Positions 9,249 to 18,117 of a stretch of DNA of 64,000 bases are shown in pieces. Source of the stretch: Byssothecium circinans (Eukaryota; Ascomycota; Dothideomycetes; Pleosporales; Massarinaceae). Numbering within the stretch: position 1 is the first letter of the stretch; each line of letters begins with the position of its first letter. The stretch is taken from NCBI GenBank assembly GCA_010015675.1, contig ML976984.1, positions 931,534 through 995,533 on the forward strand, in the 5' to 3' direction. The notes under the pieces were generated by a model that had not been told where the DNA came from, searched no databases, and saw only the letters and a program-made list of their open reading frames with translations. The translations under genes and the position numbers were made by a program.

Positions 9249-12200
9249 TCACGCCGCAGCGGCTTCGTCAGGTTTGTCACTCTCACTCTCATCGGCATCA
9301 TTATCCACGAGCCCAGGCTCAGGCACCTCATCAGGAATCAGCACGTTTTCTTCCCGATCCATATCCTCGTCATCCTCGTCCTTGATCTCAGGCTCAGGCT
9401 CCACCGCACCCCCAGTCCCAACACCATTCGCCATCTGCACATCCCCAACCCCAACCTCCGCGCCCTTCCCCACACCACCACTAGGGCCAGCAGCGCCCCC
9501 ACTCTTCAACATCTCCACCTTCGCCTTCGTCATCTCATAAACATACTGCCCCAAATGCTCCACGCCCTCCATAACCGCCTCCCTCCCCTCCTCCACCACG
9601 TCAGCAACCTGCCGCGCGTGCGACGGCGCATACATTTCATCAGTGACGAGGGCGAGTTTTGTGGAGCGCGTGAGCAGGATGTCAAAGGCGGGTTTGAGTT
9701 CGAAGCAGGAGGAGAAGATGGAGGCGCGGCCGAGGATGTAGAGGCCCAGACGGGCGCGGGAGAGGGCGACGGTGAGGCGGCGGATGTCGCGGAGGTAGCC
9801 TATGCTGCGGGTGCGGACGAGGGAGAGGATGATATCTGCGGGTCGGTGTTAGTTTCCTGTCTTTCTCTTTTCCTGTATTTCCCGCTGTCTGCTCGTGTCG
9901 ACCGGAAAGGTAAGGTAGAGAGCGATATGATGGAAGGGAAGGGAAGGGATGAAAACTTACAATCATTCTGTTCACCTTGATACTTATCCACCGTCGCCAC
10001 GATCCTCGGCAGACCAAAGAGTCTATTCCCTTTACACCTATGGTTTAGCACATCCTTGATGAGCGCGCGTTGTCCAGCATACGTTGTCAGGATGGAAATC
10101 TTGTGTGCCGGATAACCCAGTAGACGCATGTACATGAACAGTGCGACCGCGTATTCTGCCTCTCCCAAGTTTTGTATGAAGTGAGGTGTAGGTTCCATCT
10201 CTCCTTTGCCTTTGTAGTCGGGAACGTCGATGAACTGGTACTCAAACTTGAACCCGGGGTTCGCAGTCTGGAATTCCGGCGTCGATGTAACGGACGGCAA
10301 GTTCTCAAGCTTGGGATACCGCCATTTGTACAACTCCGCAATTGACGGCCTCGCTCTGCCCTGTTGATCTAGCATAACAGTCGGTACACCCAGCCTCACC
10401 AGGCGTTGGAAGAGCGACTGCTCCAGATTTGCATACTGTCTAAATGCCAGATTCTGGATAATCGGCGAGTTCTGCAAATGATCACCACAGAGCACGATAC
10501 GTTGCAGAGGCAATTCGCCGTTCTGTGGGTTCTGCAGTGCGAGCGGGATGAAGTTTTCGATTTCGGTGATTTGGGCCGCTTCTTCCATGATGACGTTGTC
10601 ATAGTGGAAACCCAAGGAGGCGATTTCTTGTCTGCGCATTGCGGCGTGCGTCGATGTCATTGCGATGATGCGGGCTTCTTTTACGAGGAGGTAATTTGCT
10701 TTGTCGCGCGGGTTGCGCAAGATCTCGAAGGGACGGATGTCCTCGAGTTCGGTGAAGATTTTTTCGACATGGCGGTAGCATCCTTGCGCGATGTCAATGA
10801 GTTGCTCTTTGTTTGCGCCAGGCGGGAAGAGCGGTTGCGGTGCATCTGCAAAGTAGTCCTTGAATGGGAATTCTGCGACTATTTGTTCGATGGTGGAGTC
10901 AGGGGATGAAATGTTGTCCCAATATTGTGTCCAGGCAGGCTTCACATAGACTAGATTGAAGTAATCTGCTGTTTCGCACGAGCTGCCATGGGCACCGGGC
11001 GCTCCAAAGTTTTTTGCCAGGCGATCTACCTCAGAGAGGTAGTATGTGCCTCTCTCCAAGAACGACTCTACACGACCATGCTTGCTATAGCTGGCTTCTG
11101 TCTCGAGCCCTTCTTCGCCGTGTCCTAAACGCAGAAGATGGCGCTCATCGATATCGAGCGCCACAATCTTCTGGAAGAGTTGGTTGAGTGCTTGATTGCT
11201 ATGCGCCACAAGCAGCGTCCGTTGGTCCGGGAAGTTGTGGTATATATTGGATATAATTTGGGTCGCTACGTCTGTCTTGCCAGTACCCGGTGGCCCGACC
11301 ACGACAGTCAGACCGGGTTGCGAGCCCGAAGTGATCGCTTCAATCTGAGCAGGGGTAAATCTAACGGTGTTCAGCTTCGGTGCGTCTGCAGGATAAGGTC
11401 CCATGTTTGGAGGCTTGTAAGACGAGACCTGCAGAGATTCATGCGCAGGCTGTGGTGCGACCTCGACTTGGTCACGACGACGTTTCTTGGATGATCGAAT
11501 AGGTGGAGCTTCTGCTTCAGCTGATGCGGGGAACTGCACAACGTATGGAGGCCCAAAGGATGACTGTGCGTCTTCATGGGGTTCGATGGATTTGCCGGGC
11601 AAGGATTCGATCAGGTGCTGCCAGTCTAAGAAGGTATCACGGAAGTCTATCGAATGCAGCCGGTTAGGCAGTCGCTTGTAAGTTGCAGACGAGGGATCGC
11701 CATAGCCCAGAAAGACTTCTTGCAGCCATGAGGGAGCTGGGATATCGGAGAGCGTAAGGCGGCGAATGGACTCAAGAATGGGTTGAAAGTTGTTCTCCCT
11801 CCCTCGTCGACGCACGACCAGGTTGATCTGCTCGTAGACGTTCGGCCGACCTTGTGCAGCACGGTCCATGTCCTTTTGATATTGCTTGGCGTCGATGTGG
11901 ACGACGAGCCTTCGCTGTCGAGCTCGTGGTGCGTCGCCGTCCATAGAGGGCTGATCTCGGAGGGGCCGACCCTTCTCGTCCTGTACCTGAACGACGGAGG
12001 CACTCCTAAGGACGCGGATCCCAAGTTGCTCACCAGCGTCTTGTTGATCGACACCATTCGACATCGACGCGTCTTCGGGTTCTTCAACGGCGAGTAGGAA
12101 GACCACATCATCTGACCTCAGAGATTCCCACTCTTTTCGTACGGGATATTGGAGACGGCTGACATCTAGAATGACCTCTGCACGTACGTACGCTGGATAC

Positions 12201-13877
12201 TCCTCGCCGACCCGTGACGGGGCCACGTCGACAATTCCAGGCTTCGAGATGGGTATCGACATCCGCGAAAAGCCTCTGAAGCTTGCGTCGGCGCCCTTAC
12301 CACGCGGCTGGACCCTCTTAGCAACGTCCTCCATATCTTTGCGAATGCCATAGAGTGACTCTGCTCTGTAGAGGATGAACGACCGCCACAAGAAGTCGCC
12401 CATGGTCAGATACTGTAGGTTGAGCTTCGGTATGGCCAGTGGCCGTGATCCATCGTAAGACTCGTTGCGGAGGAATGTCGTCTCATATAGGATCTTCTCG
12501 GTGGGCAGTATGGGCATTTCGCGTACGACGTCCTTGAAGGTTGGTCGATGTTCCACCAATCCCAGCAGTGCCTCTGTAAAGAAGGCTCGGTCCTGCACCA
12601 AGAACGTCGATTTCGGATACTCTGTCCGTAGCCCCATGAGCGAGCATAATTGGACAACTTCGCTGTCTTCTAGTGTTCGAAGGTGGCCTTCCAGTTCGTC
12701 CCTGTTGCCCACGCTGCCGTAGTTTGCCAGTGCCAATAGCTGAAGCTTCTCTTGAAACGTCGCATAACCGACTCTTTGCAGCTTTGCAAGTAGGTCGTAA
12801 TGTTCTTGGTCGTACTCCAGCTTCGACAGCTGTTTTCCCGTCTGGTCTTCGATTGGGAAGTAGGTGAAGTGGCTAAGGAGTATCGTGAGGTCGCGAAATA
12901 GCCCATTCTCCTCGTTCGTGTACATTGGAGACAATCTCATCGCCGGTAGAATGTTCAAATCCCGCAACAGAGTGTTGACGAATCTCCTTGTCGGCAGCTG
13001 GCTTTGCAGATCCGTCAGCAGCTCAACGAAGCGCTCGCAATAAGCCAAATTATCCTGCATCTCCTGTCGCGAGGTGTTGTTGTAAAGCCGATCGAGAAAG
13101 TCCAGGAGCAATGCGAACAGCCATGAGCGCTCAAACTTCAACCGCGCCTGGAGCGCCTCATCCCCAGCATCGAACCGCTTGTGCGCCGCCCTCCACACCT
13201 TCTTGAGTACCTGATGTTGTTCGAACTGATGCTCTCGCACGGTTTCCGAATGCAAGTTCTGCCATATTGATATGCTGACCAGAGGTGCGCACTCTTTTCG
13301 TACCAAGCCGCTGTCTAAGGATTGAAATGCGCCAATGACGAAGGATATGAGCTGTGTCCGGATCTTGATCGACTGCGAGGTGTCTATAGTCATGGACAGT
13401 ATGCGACGAAAGAAGGAGGAGAATTCGGCTGGTCGACTCGCAAAGTGTTCTGCCTCACCGTTAGCAATGTCCAGAGGCGCTTTCAATCCGACAACGCTTA
13501 CCCCATGAAGGCAGATTCTCCCTCCTCTTCACATTGACCATGAGCGCCAAAAGCAAATGATGGTAGTTCGACGAGTCCTCGGTGAACCCAGGCCATAGAT
13601 ATCTCTCCAGCAGCTGCAGGTTCTCCAATACGAGTAGCGACGGGTATGCGAAGTCGATCTTCTCCAGCTCATCCCATAACTCTTTCTTGACCACTTCAGG
13701 CCGCGCCTTCTGCGCCTTGCCTCCGCTCAGCCAGTTCTTCCTCGCTACCTGTGCGAAATGGTTCTCTCCATGCAAATCGGCGACAGTGGGACGGGCGTGC
13801 AGAGTCGGAGCTTGGGTCGCGGGCGCGGTTGCGGCATCCTGAGCGCTTGACGCTCTTCCAACCTTGATATCCTCCAT
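9249..13877 (-). CDS. cwf11: Intron-binding spliceosomal helicase Aquarius / Cwf11
   Basis: Aquarius is an SF1 RNA helicase that binds the intron upstream of the branch site in the activated spliceosome. Three minus-strand exons (13502..13877, 9961..13449, 9249..9835) give 1483 residues, as expected. The N-terminal half is the helical ARM-like domain (EHFASRPAEFSSFFRRIL spans the first junction). The C-terminal half is the UPF1-like helicase, with Walker [11 protein letters not shown] near residue 840, the EEAAQ Walker B motif near 1078, LCGDHLQ, DQQGRARPSI and VDKYQGEQND. The second intron (9836..9960) splits that last motif from YIILSLVRT and the ALSRARLGLY motif VI. Residues after about 1370 form an acidic tail (DEDDEDMDREE). 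I start at ATG 13877; upstream in-frame codons have no family support. Intron 1 is 52 bp and carries a CTAAC branch site. Confidence 0.93.
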
Positions 13878-16875: not shown

Positions 16876-17213
16876 TGGCTTACCGCGAATTCACGCGACT
16901 AAAAGCCCTTGCCGAAGCCATCAGGAGATACGAGAGTGAGCTAGGCTCGCAGTGAGAATTTGCTTAGACTATATTGCAGAATAAAGGAGCTAACGGAAAG
17001 GACTGTAAAAAGTGTTCATTGTGAAACTCCGTGGGGAGGGTCACACGCGATCATGTGTCTGGGATCTTTGATAGCGGAAGCGTGCTGTGATATACACACA
17101 TCTCGCGTATGTTTGATACGGCAAGCTGCGAGCTTACCCCCTCACTAAAATAATTTTAGACCAGCAAAAACCAAAACAGATGATAGGAAACCTTTTGCAA
17201 CAAAAAGAATATG

Positions 17214-17335
17214 CGATGTCGAAGGGACTCGAACCCTCAATCTCTACCACCGGAAAGTAGCGCCTTGCCTGATCTATCGTTAGATTGAGTTCAATAAAAT
17301 TTTACTTGTAAAACTTACCATTAGGCCACGACATC
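17214..17335 (-). tRNA. tRNA-Arg(CCG) with a 50-nt intron-like insertion in the D-loop
   Basis: On the minus strand the ends form a perfect 7-bp acceptor stem (GATGTCG/CGACATC) with discriminator G. If 17269..17318 is removed, the rest folds as a complete 72-nt tRNA: D-stem GCCT/AGGC with loop AATGGCA, anticodon stem CTACT/GGTAG with loop TTCCGGT (anticodon CCG, reads CGG), a 5-nt variable loop, and T-stem GAGGG/CCCTT with loop TTCGAGT. A T5 Pol III terminator follows about 7 nt beyond the 3' end (17202..17206). The A-box sequence TGGCCTAATGG survives the insertion. Whether the gene is functional depends on whether the insertion is removed. There is no ordinary intron at the 37/38 position. 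Confidence 0.9.
17269..17318 (-). mobile_element. Introner-like element (spliceosomal-intron-like insertion) in tRNA-Arg
   Basis: This 50-nt segment starts GTAAGT, has CTAAC 13 nt before its end and finishes ATCAG, so it has every core signal of a short fungal spliceosomal intron, yet it sits between D-loop bases of a tRNA. It can fold into three successive hairpins (AGTTTTA/TAAAATT, ATTGA/TCAAT, ATCTA/TAGAT). A second copy (17338..17387) lies next to the tRNA. Introner-like elements are known in Dothideomycetes; calling this one is inference. Confidence 0.55.
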
Positions 17336-17337
17336 GT

Positions 17338-17387
17338 TTGATGTATCTTCAGATTGATTTTAATAAAATTTTACTTATAAAACATAA
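17338..17387 (-). repeat. Diverged second copy of the 50-bp intron-like element
   Basis: It aligns without gaps to 17269..17318 at about 41 of 50 positions in the same orientation, including the central AATAAAATTTTACTT core. It ends 2 bp from the 5' end of the tRNA. Its terminal splice-like bases are lost (no GTAAGT, no CTAAC, no CAG), so this copy looks decayed. Confidence 0.8.
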
Positions 17388-18117
17388 ATATAGTATGGTT
17401 TACATTGGGCAGTCTAAATTCCCAAACCTACGTCACCTCATGGTCGACAACGCTATCACACAGACCACCACCTTTCTTACCAATCGGATCACTTAGCAAA
17501 CATACAAGGATATCGAAATTCTGCGTGTAGCCCTTTCAGCTGGTAAGTGTGGCTGGTACTTCGCTAGCCTGTTTTAGACTAGAAGGTAGTAGTCTATGTA
17601 AGGGCGTTGTCAACTATGCACAGGATAGAGGGATAGAGGCCCATGAATACTCGGCCTAGAAAGGGAGCCTAACTGAGACACCCTTTGCATTGCTAACTAT
17701 ATTGTTTTGATATTCACTGTGAAACGGTATGATAGGGTGTAAAAGCGTGTCGAATATCGCGATACATTGCCCAGCAAACATACTAGTATTTTGCGATCGG
17801 ACAAGACATACCACCTTTCCTTTGATCTTTCACTGCGCAGAATCAACACCTCTCTTGTTTTCATCGAGACCGCAACTCATATTTCGACTATAACATCATC
17901 GGAACGCACGGTGCATTTTGCCAAGCCAATCGGCGGTTGCTCTCACTAATCCCGACGCTTCCTCGTAATCAAGAGCTGCCTCCAAACAGCTCTGCACCAA
18001 CACTCCCACCACCCATTCACGAGCTATTCTGCCCAACACCACTCACTTTGATCGTCCGCACCTAAAAATCGTCCCCCCTCATCCTCACTCAAACCCCCAC
18101 ACCGTACAACCGTCACC
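17388..18117. other. Upstream region of RPT5
   Basis: It holds no supported exon. It probably carries the RPT5 promoter and leader. A CCAAT-type sequence (GCCAATCGG) lies near 17925. I looked for the yeast proteasome element GGTGGCAAA and did not find it. Confidence 0.4.

Follow-up and report, generated by a model that had tools for sequence, protein, structure and literature searches.

Introduction

Nuclear tRNA introns lie at position 37/38 and are cut out by the endonuclease TSEN. Introns of the mRNA type are also found in structural RNAs. In some yeasts the U6 snRNA genes contain one, and spliceosomal introns in ascomycete rDNA were reportedly described by Bhattacharya and by Cubero in 2000. 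Fungi are further said to contain introner-like elements (van der Burgt, 2012).

Two papers document spliceosomal introns at ectopic sites in ascomycete rDNA (PMC8527467, PMC11889510), and one of them reports that yeast splices an intron of this type, taken from a lichen, out of Pol I rRNA transcripts (PMC8527467). For tRNA genes, a review (PMC4090602) states that the ectopic introns of Cyanidioschyzon merolae and of archaea need a bulge-helix-bulge (BHB) motif to be cut by the tRNA endonuclease, and that the mode of cutting of the nucleomorph ones is not known. The same review calls noncanonical introns rare; its main text has no instance of the word stem “spliceosom”. The stem is likewise absent from the text on tRNAscan-SE 2.0, a program that provides BHB-based models of noncanonical introns for archaea (PMC8450103). 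Among the matches listed in a search of the open-licence full text of PMC, to which subscription papers and most preprints do not belong, none reports, by its title or the start of its abstract, that tRNA genes contain spliceosomal introns.

Anatomy of the tRNA-Arg(CCG) gene

The stretch of DNA here called the window comprises 64,000 nucleotides of Byssothecium circinans (GCA_010015675.1, contig ML976984.1, positions 931,534 to 995,533). On its minus strand, at 17214-17335, lies a tRNA-Arg(CCG) cloverleaf that is whole only without a 50-nt insert, GTAAGT...CTAAC...CAG, in the D-loop. This anatomy can be read off directly. Exon 1 (17319..17335, minus strand like all features listed here) has 17 nt and contains the 5′ strand of the acceptor stem, fully paired (7/7) with its 3′ counterpart, positions 8-9, the 5′ strand of the D-stem and the start of the D-loop up to G18. 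Between G18 and G19 sits an intron of spliceosomal type (17269..17318), running GTAAGT...CTAAC...ATCAG. Its 5′ splice site GTAAGT occupies 17313..17318, its branch-point motif CTAAC 17279..17283, with 11 nt following the branch A, and its 3′ splice site CAG 17269..17271. Exon 2 (17214..17268) provides the anticodon CCG, the T arm, the 3′ acceptor strand and the discriminator.

The signals for Pol III are in place. The A box TGGCCTAATGG (17318..17328; pattern at gene offset 7) is intact in the unspliced DNA, its final G being the first base of the intron. The B box GGTTCGAGTCC (17225..17235) is intact as well, and a T5 terminator follows at 17202..17206. A TATA-like element lies 5′ of the gene at 17388..17392 (TATA at −57); a second TATA, at −44, falls within a copy of the intron in the leader, to which we return below.

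Once the intron is removed, ARAGORN recognizes a tRNA-Arg(CCG), its stems paired 7/7 (acceptor), 4/4 (D), 5/5 (anticodon) and 5/5 (T), and the RNA has 72 nt counting the discriminator. The unspliced gene is misnamed Gly(TCC) by the same program, with a false intron of 49 nt. In its bacterial mode without introns, ARAGORN finds no tRNA in the whole window, and Rfam at gathering score has no match there either. The earlier note, made from the letters of the window, had claimed that removal of the 50 nt is needed to complete the gene, that all stems then pair at a canonical length of 72 nt, and that the GTAAGT start, the CTAAC, the ATCAG end, the A box and the T5 are present; the ARAGORN call and the stem check on the spliced form bear this out, and every signal was found as claimed. 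The note had also proposed to count the tRNA-Arg(CCG) genes: BLAST with exon 2 finds a single copy in the assembly, which has 48.4 Mb in 109 contigs.

The leader copy and the origin of the intron

The 5′ leader of the gene contains a diverged direct copy of the intron (17339-17386, minus strand; 85%), which matches intron nucleotides 2-49 and starts 3 nt upstream of the gene. Of the two copies, just that in the D-loop has the signals GTAAGT, CTAAC and CAG; the leader copy has lost them. Two origins are conceivable: a transfer of the intron into the leader, e.g., by reverse splicing, or an emergence of the intron from leader DNA. A tandem duplication of exon 1 together with the intron was considered as a source of the leader copy and rejected: exon 1 is undetectable there, its match to the region upstream of the copy not exceeding that of shuffled sequences (700 of 2000 reach the score).

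The insert might then be nothing but leader DNA duplicated locally into the D-loop, with splice-like signals by accident. The closeness of the copy is in line with this idea, as is a genome-wide search that found the intron sequence in these two places only. We nevertheless consider it unlikely. The homology coincides with the ends of the intron, the splice signals are confined to the D-loop copy, and introns of the same kind occur in 16 further genes. Moreover, BLAST among all 18 introns yields only one match, a 12-nt stretch shared by two Lys paralogues. The Arg(CCG) intron alone may have come from the leader, which would still leave a spliceable intron.

Ectopic introns in other tRNA genes

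A partial survey of this one genome revealed 18 ectopic introns in 17 of the 55 tRNA genes examined; their recurrence is a matter of observation. The loci came from the Rfam tRNA model (47 matches from 63 of 1497 candidates scored), from the 150 GGTTCGANYCC B-box sites, 103 of them new to the set, of which 100 were retrieved and scanned, and from BLAST with Arg(CCG), Asn and Lys genes, aimed at their paralogues. Sites with GGTTCAA were included only where the listing with a degenerate pattern gave them. The pattern GGTTCRANYCC occurs at 278 sites in the genome, its reversed control at 310. It is thus no commoner than the control and finds tRNAs only in combination with stem checks. The 55 consist of the 17 intron-bearing genes, two tRNA-like loci (L085, L118) and 36 comparison loci; the latter are ARAGORN calls, some with odd intron placements, in which no ectopic insert was noticed. 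No gene for Phe, Tyr, Trp, initiator or elongator Met was positively identified in the survey, and 17/55 therefore describes the genes looked at, not the genome. Five loci (L037, L045, L050, L117, L195) were spotted by eye with the splice motifs in mind and then checked for stem pairing; the acceptor-stem cases among those found by eye were additionally checked by the position of their TATA.

None of the 18 introns lies at 37/38, the site of canonical eukaryotic tRNA introns. They occupy some ten other sites in the acceptor stem, the D-loop, at 21/22 and 26/27, in the variable arm, the T-stem and the T-loop (the numbering is our own, derived from the sequence). The position between 18 and 19 is shared by Arg-CCG, Thr-AGT2 and the first of two introns of Arg-TCT, whose second one is found at 26/27. 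In Arg-CCT, as L047 reads once spliced, the intron comes directly before G18, in Val-CAC at 21/22, in Ser-GCT in the variable arm. The T-stem is interrupted at 50/51 in Thr-TGT (L044); at 52/53 an intron is found in His-GTG2, Lys-CTT1, Lys-CTT2, Asn-GTT1 and Asn-GTT2. The T-loop is split at 57/58 in Lys-CTT3 and Lys-TTT. Acceptor-stem introns are seen at 3/4 in Pro-CGG and Thr-CGT, and at 4/5 in Arg-ACG2.

Splice signals

All 18 introns measure 48-64 nt. Their ends are GT-AG in 16 cases and GC-AG in two. Seventeen of them, the window intron among these, have a CTRAY motif whose branch A is followed by 9-12 nt; that of Arg-ACG2 has no CTRAY at the usual distance. Only 866 of 2,000,000 random segments of the window show such signals by chance, counted as G[T/C]...AG plus a CTRAY whose A is followed by 9-13 nt, four registers being allowed, a definition that was fixed after the real introns had been seen and that drew its lengths from the first 14 of them.

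The mRNA introns of the window look alike. That of the Aquarius gene has 52 nt, 11 of them after the branch A, and reads GTAAGC..GCTAAC..GCAG; that of Ski2 has 49 nt, 9 of them after the branch A, and reads GTTCGT..GCTAAT..TTAG. A further Aquarius intron is longer and also has CTAAC. In their ends, their branch motif (17/18) and the resemblance of size and signals to these mRNA introns, the ectopic introns show the marks of the U2 type. The signals are thus conserved across the set, which is again a plain observation.

An intron pattern CTAAY...AGGTTCRANNCC gave six matches, four of them known tRNA introns and two non-tRNA by eye, against two for the reversed control. Two scans of viral contigs for related genes gave no match, and no intron was seen in the U6 and SRP RNA matches of the genome, which likewise are Pol III products. 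In the 0.36 Mb of this genome that were compared, no copies of the other 17 introns turned up. An introner family was considered and is unsupported as far as tested; the Arg(CCG) intron has one neighbouring copy only.

TSEN and its ligase might remove the ectopic introns too, in the way proposed for those of C. merolae and known for archaeal ones, the GT-AG look being incidental. Ectopic tRNA introns are indeed known at D-, T- and anticodon-arm sites and depend on BHB in C. merolae and archaea (PMC4090602), and three of the four central BHB pairs can be formed in some register at 9 of the 18 junctions. With shuffled introns as reference there seemed to be an enrichment: three of the four helix pairs could form at 8 of 14 junctions, a level attained by 21% of the shuffles. 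This excess, however, is gone if swapped introns serve as control, which keeps the composition of the ends: the mean number of pairs is 2.22 for the real and 2.18 for the swapped combinations. A BHB motif with a central helix of 4 bp is found at none of the 18 ectopic junctions, while 8.6% of the 266 swapped combinations of exon and intron have one. Nor does TSEN offer any reason for GT/GC-AG ends in 18/18 and for the CTRAY spacing in 17/18. Removal by TSEN is thus very unlikely, and the spliceosome is the economical choice of enzyme.

Exons, promoters and terminators

After removal of the introns, complete pairing is seen in all 17 genes both in the acceptor stem (7/7) and in the T stem (5/5). 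ARAGORN finds a tRNA in each spliced form; in four of them it puts the 37/38 intron in the wrong place and consequently misreads the anticodon. The stem script returned sub-maximal counts for the D and anticodon stems of some genes, since 37/38 introns and loop registers are beyond its scope. Of 13 genes tried unspliced, seven gave no tRNA in ARAGORN, and four of the remaining six the wrong isotype.

The paralogues are instructive. Two Asn(GTT) genes were found, each with an ectopic intron in the T arm, and BLAST for Asn paralogues did not find any Asn gene without one. Their exons are identical; they differ in the 37/38 intron and in the ectopic intron, the similarity being 61% for the ectopic introns and 48% for the 60 nt upstream of the genes. 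In the case of Lys(CTT), the first two genes differ inside introns only, and their ectopic introns are 70% alike. Both members of the Asn pair and of the Lys(CTT) pair have kept the splice signals. This divergence between paralogues is there to be seen. Given identical exons and drifted introns, the ectopic introns of the two pairs most likely predate the duplications, and both copies of each pair most likely stayed under tRNA constraint, as judged from their sequences. As only two Asn genes were found, every Asn tRNA would need splicing, provided that the assembly is complete and no diverged gene was missed. A natural empty site is offered by Thr(AGT): as far as nucleotide 72, the exons of Thr-AGT2 (L147) agree with L004, a gene without the D-loop intron. 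The discriminator is C in Thr-AGT2 versus A in L004, which counts against full function of the former.

All 17 intron-bearing genes have the A-box pattern. In unspliced DNA, 15 of the 17 have the B box at full strength; in five of these, namely those with an intron at 52/53, it extends across the junction of intron and exon, and the last G of the intron completes GGTTCGANNCC. Both T-loop introns (57/58) destroy the exon B box. Both also contain a B-box-like sequence of their own, GGTTCGAATCA (3 of 2000 shuffles) and AGTTCGAATCA (5 of 2000 shuffles). The test for intron-borne B boxes covered 18 introns, and such matches are not exclusive to the T-loop cases: where the exon B box is intact, the Thr-TGT intron (L044) has TGTTCGATTCC (0 of 2000 shuffles) and the Thr-CGT intron AGTTCCACCCC (13 of 2000). 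The presence of TGTTCGATTCC in the T-stem intron of Thr-TGT hints at an origin by T-arm duplication.

In the three acceptor-stem cases, TATA is found at −42, −44 and −49 from a first exon of 3-4 nt; of the 36 comparison loci, 24 have theirs between −60 and −30. The usual distance supports the mini-exon as the true 5′ end. A run of five or more T follows at most 41 nt downstream in 17/17 genes; in His-GTG2, Thr-TGT and Thr-AGT2 the first T5 comes only at 34-41 nt. None of the 18 ectopic introns contains a T5. The distant T5 of these three genes and the altered discriminator of Thr-AGT2 imply that some of the set may be weak or dead.

Could all of them be pseudogenes, killed by insertions, with intact copies doing the work? 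D- and T-arm insertions in eukaryotes are deemed mostly marks of pseudogenes in the review mentioned (PMC4090602). Some paralogues are indeed free of ectopic introns, namely L004 for Thr(AGT), L017 for Arg(ACG) and, though much diverged, L002 for His(GTG), and the late terminators and the changed discriminator just described point the same way. Yet the insertions affect the single-copy Arg(CCG) gene and both Asn genes found. The exons of paralogues are identical, though their introns differ by 30-39%, acceptor and T stems are intact throughout, and promoters and terminators are kept. As a general explanation, dead genes are extremely unlikely. Mis-joined or random sequence in tRNA genes has nothing but the draft state of the assembly (109 contigs) in its favour and, in view of 17 separate loci on many contigs and the low chance frequency of the signals, can practically be neglected.

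Neighbouring genes and other tRNA-like loci

The gene for Aquarius, an intron-binding helicase of the spliceosome, lies at 9504-13877 on the minus strand of the window, 3.3 kb from the tRNA gene, which is probably a coincidence. Its ORF (9800-13486; identified by Pfam) is 89% identical to that of Massarina eburnea; for the Ski2 ORF the figure is 91%. The window is nuclear sequence from a member of the Pleosporales, probably of the suborder Massarineae.

Elsewhere in the genome, a dispersed tRNA-derived, SINE-like family (GGTGGGATGGCTTAGTGGTAG...GTAGGTTCAAATCC; L034, L035, L039, L041, L046, L048, L049) obtains a tRNA score in Rfam. The tRNA-like loci L085:228-342 and L118:226-342 reach 50 bits in Rfam and have a strong TATA and T-runs; the insert in their anticodon arm lacks GT-AG signals. 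L030 (1501-1572) and L043 (301-372) are tRNA-like with an anticodon loop of 8 nt and a second B-box-like stretch just 3′. L099 and L134 have in common an element of ~170 nt with a tRNA-like T arm at its end, which in L134 seems to interrupt the anticodon arm of a tRNA-like sequence. Near the centre of locus L071, TATA, B box and T7 give a Pol III look, with neither an ARAGORN tRNA nor an Rfam match. These seven loci and L137, L042 and L068 were considered as further cases and left uncounted: the splice filter returned one candidate segment from the ten, in L043, and its removal yielded no tRNA. Finally, a U6 gene and two more U6 matches, one inverted and above the cut-off, the other partial and below it, lie within 1.3 kb (G000:C14:277621-278945, L081-L083).

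A probable spliceosomal route to tRNA

The earlier note had read the insert as a spliceosomal-type D-loop intron and had left two outcomes open: splicing by an unexpected route, or a recent insertion that killed the gene. Its reading gains support from 18 like introns with mRNA-type signals in 17 genes. Unexpected splicing is the outcome favoured by the genome-wide pattern, i.e., by these 18 introns, the drifted introns of the Asn genes, the failure to find an intron-free Asn gene and the kept Pol III signals; a lone killing insertion is not supported. To judge from its sequence, the Arg(CCG) gene very probably is a working gene, one of at least 17 with ectopic U2-type introns that are transcribed by Pol III and spliced by the spliceosome. 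Transcription, splicing, the removing enzyme and the function of these genes we infer from their build.

The process may be envisaged as follows. Pol III would transcribe the genes from TATA and the A and B boxes; the introns present would be those that leave the boxes usable or bring along a replacement B box. From the pre-tRNA the spliceosome would take out the ectopic intron, and TSEN and ligase would take any 37/38 intron out of the same transcript. All this suggests that the cell needs its mRNA-splicing machinery to make some of its tRNAs.

In a wider sense, we regard it as likely that these introns form a separate class of nuclear tRNA intron. The spliceosome would then be an obligatory tRNA-processing enzyme in at least one lineage of Pleosporales, concerning many tRNAs and every Asn gene found, spliceosome and TSEN would act on one Pol III transcript, and B boxes borne by introns would rescue broken promoters. 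If true, translation capacity is linked to splicing capacity through the tRNAs that depend on the spliceosome, and the spliceosome routinely acts on Pol III transcripts that have neither cap nor Pol II tail. The genes also are a clean system to study the gain and loss of introns: their exons are under exact structural constraint, so that insertion sites are nearly unambiguous. Present tRNA finders easily overlook or misname them. Since ARAGORN fails on most of the unspliced genes in one way or the other and tRNAscan-SE models the archaeal BHB type, tRNAs that seem to be missing in fungi may be such genes.

Comparison with known systems

Canonical introns at 37/38 are present in many genes of this genome, several of which also have an ectopic one. 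The two kinds differ in site, signals and presumed enzyme. In Cyanidioschyzon merolae, nucleomorphs and Crenarchaeota, introns likewise reside in the D, T and anticodon arms, with several per tRNA gene (PMC4090602, PMC9602550). Those of C. merolae and archaea, however, depend on BHB, whereas the ones described here have GT-AG/CTRAY signals and no BHB.

The introns of ascomycete rDNA come close in another respect: they too are mRNA-type introns in a structural RNA that is not made by Pol II. There the host is a Pol I rRNA without an internal promoter to keep, here it is a tRNA. The U6 intron of yeasts is, as here, a spliceosomal intron in a Pol III transcript. Yeast U6, however, is itself part of the spliceosome, and the U6 match in the present genome is without intron. 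Introner-like elements provide fungi with new spliceosomal introns, comparable to those in the tRNA genes, but they consist of many near-identical copies, while the tRNA introns are no repeat family as far as tested. With the U2-type introns of fungal pre-mRNA, finally, the ectopic introns have in common the GT/GC-AG ends, the CTAAC-type branch motif near the 3′ end and a size of ~50 nt. What distinguishes them is the host: pre-mRNA introns sit in mRNA genes of Pol II, these ones in tRNA genes with an internal Pol III promoter.
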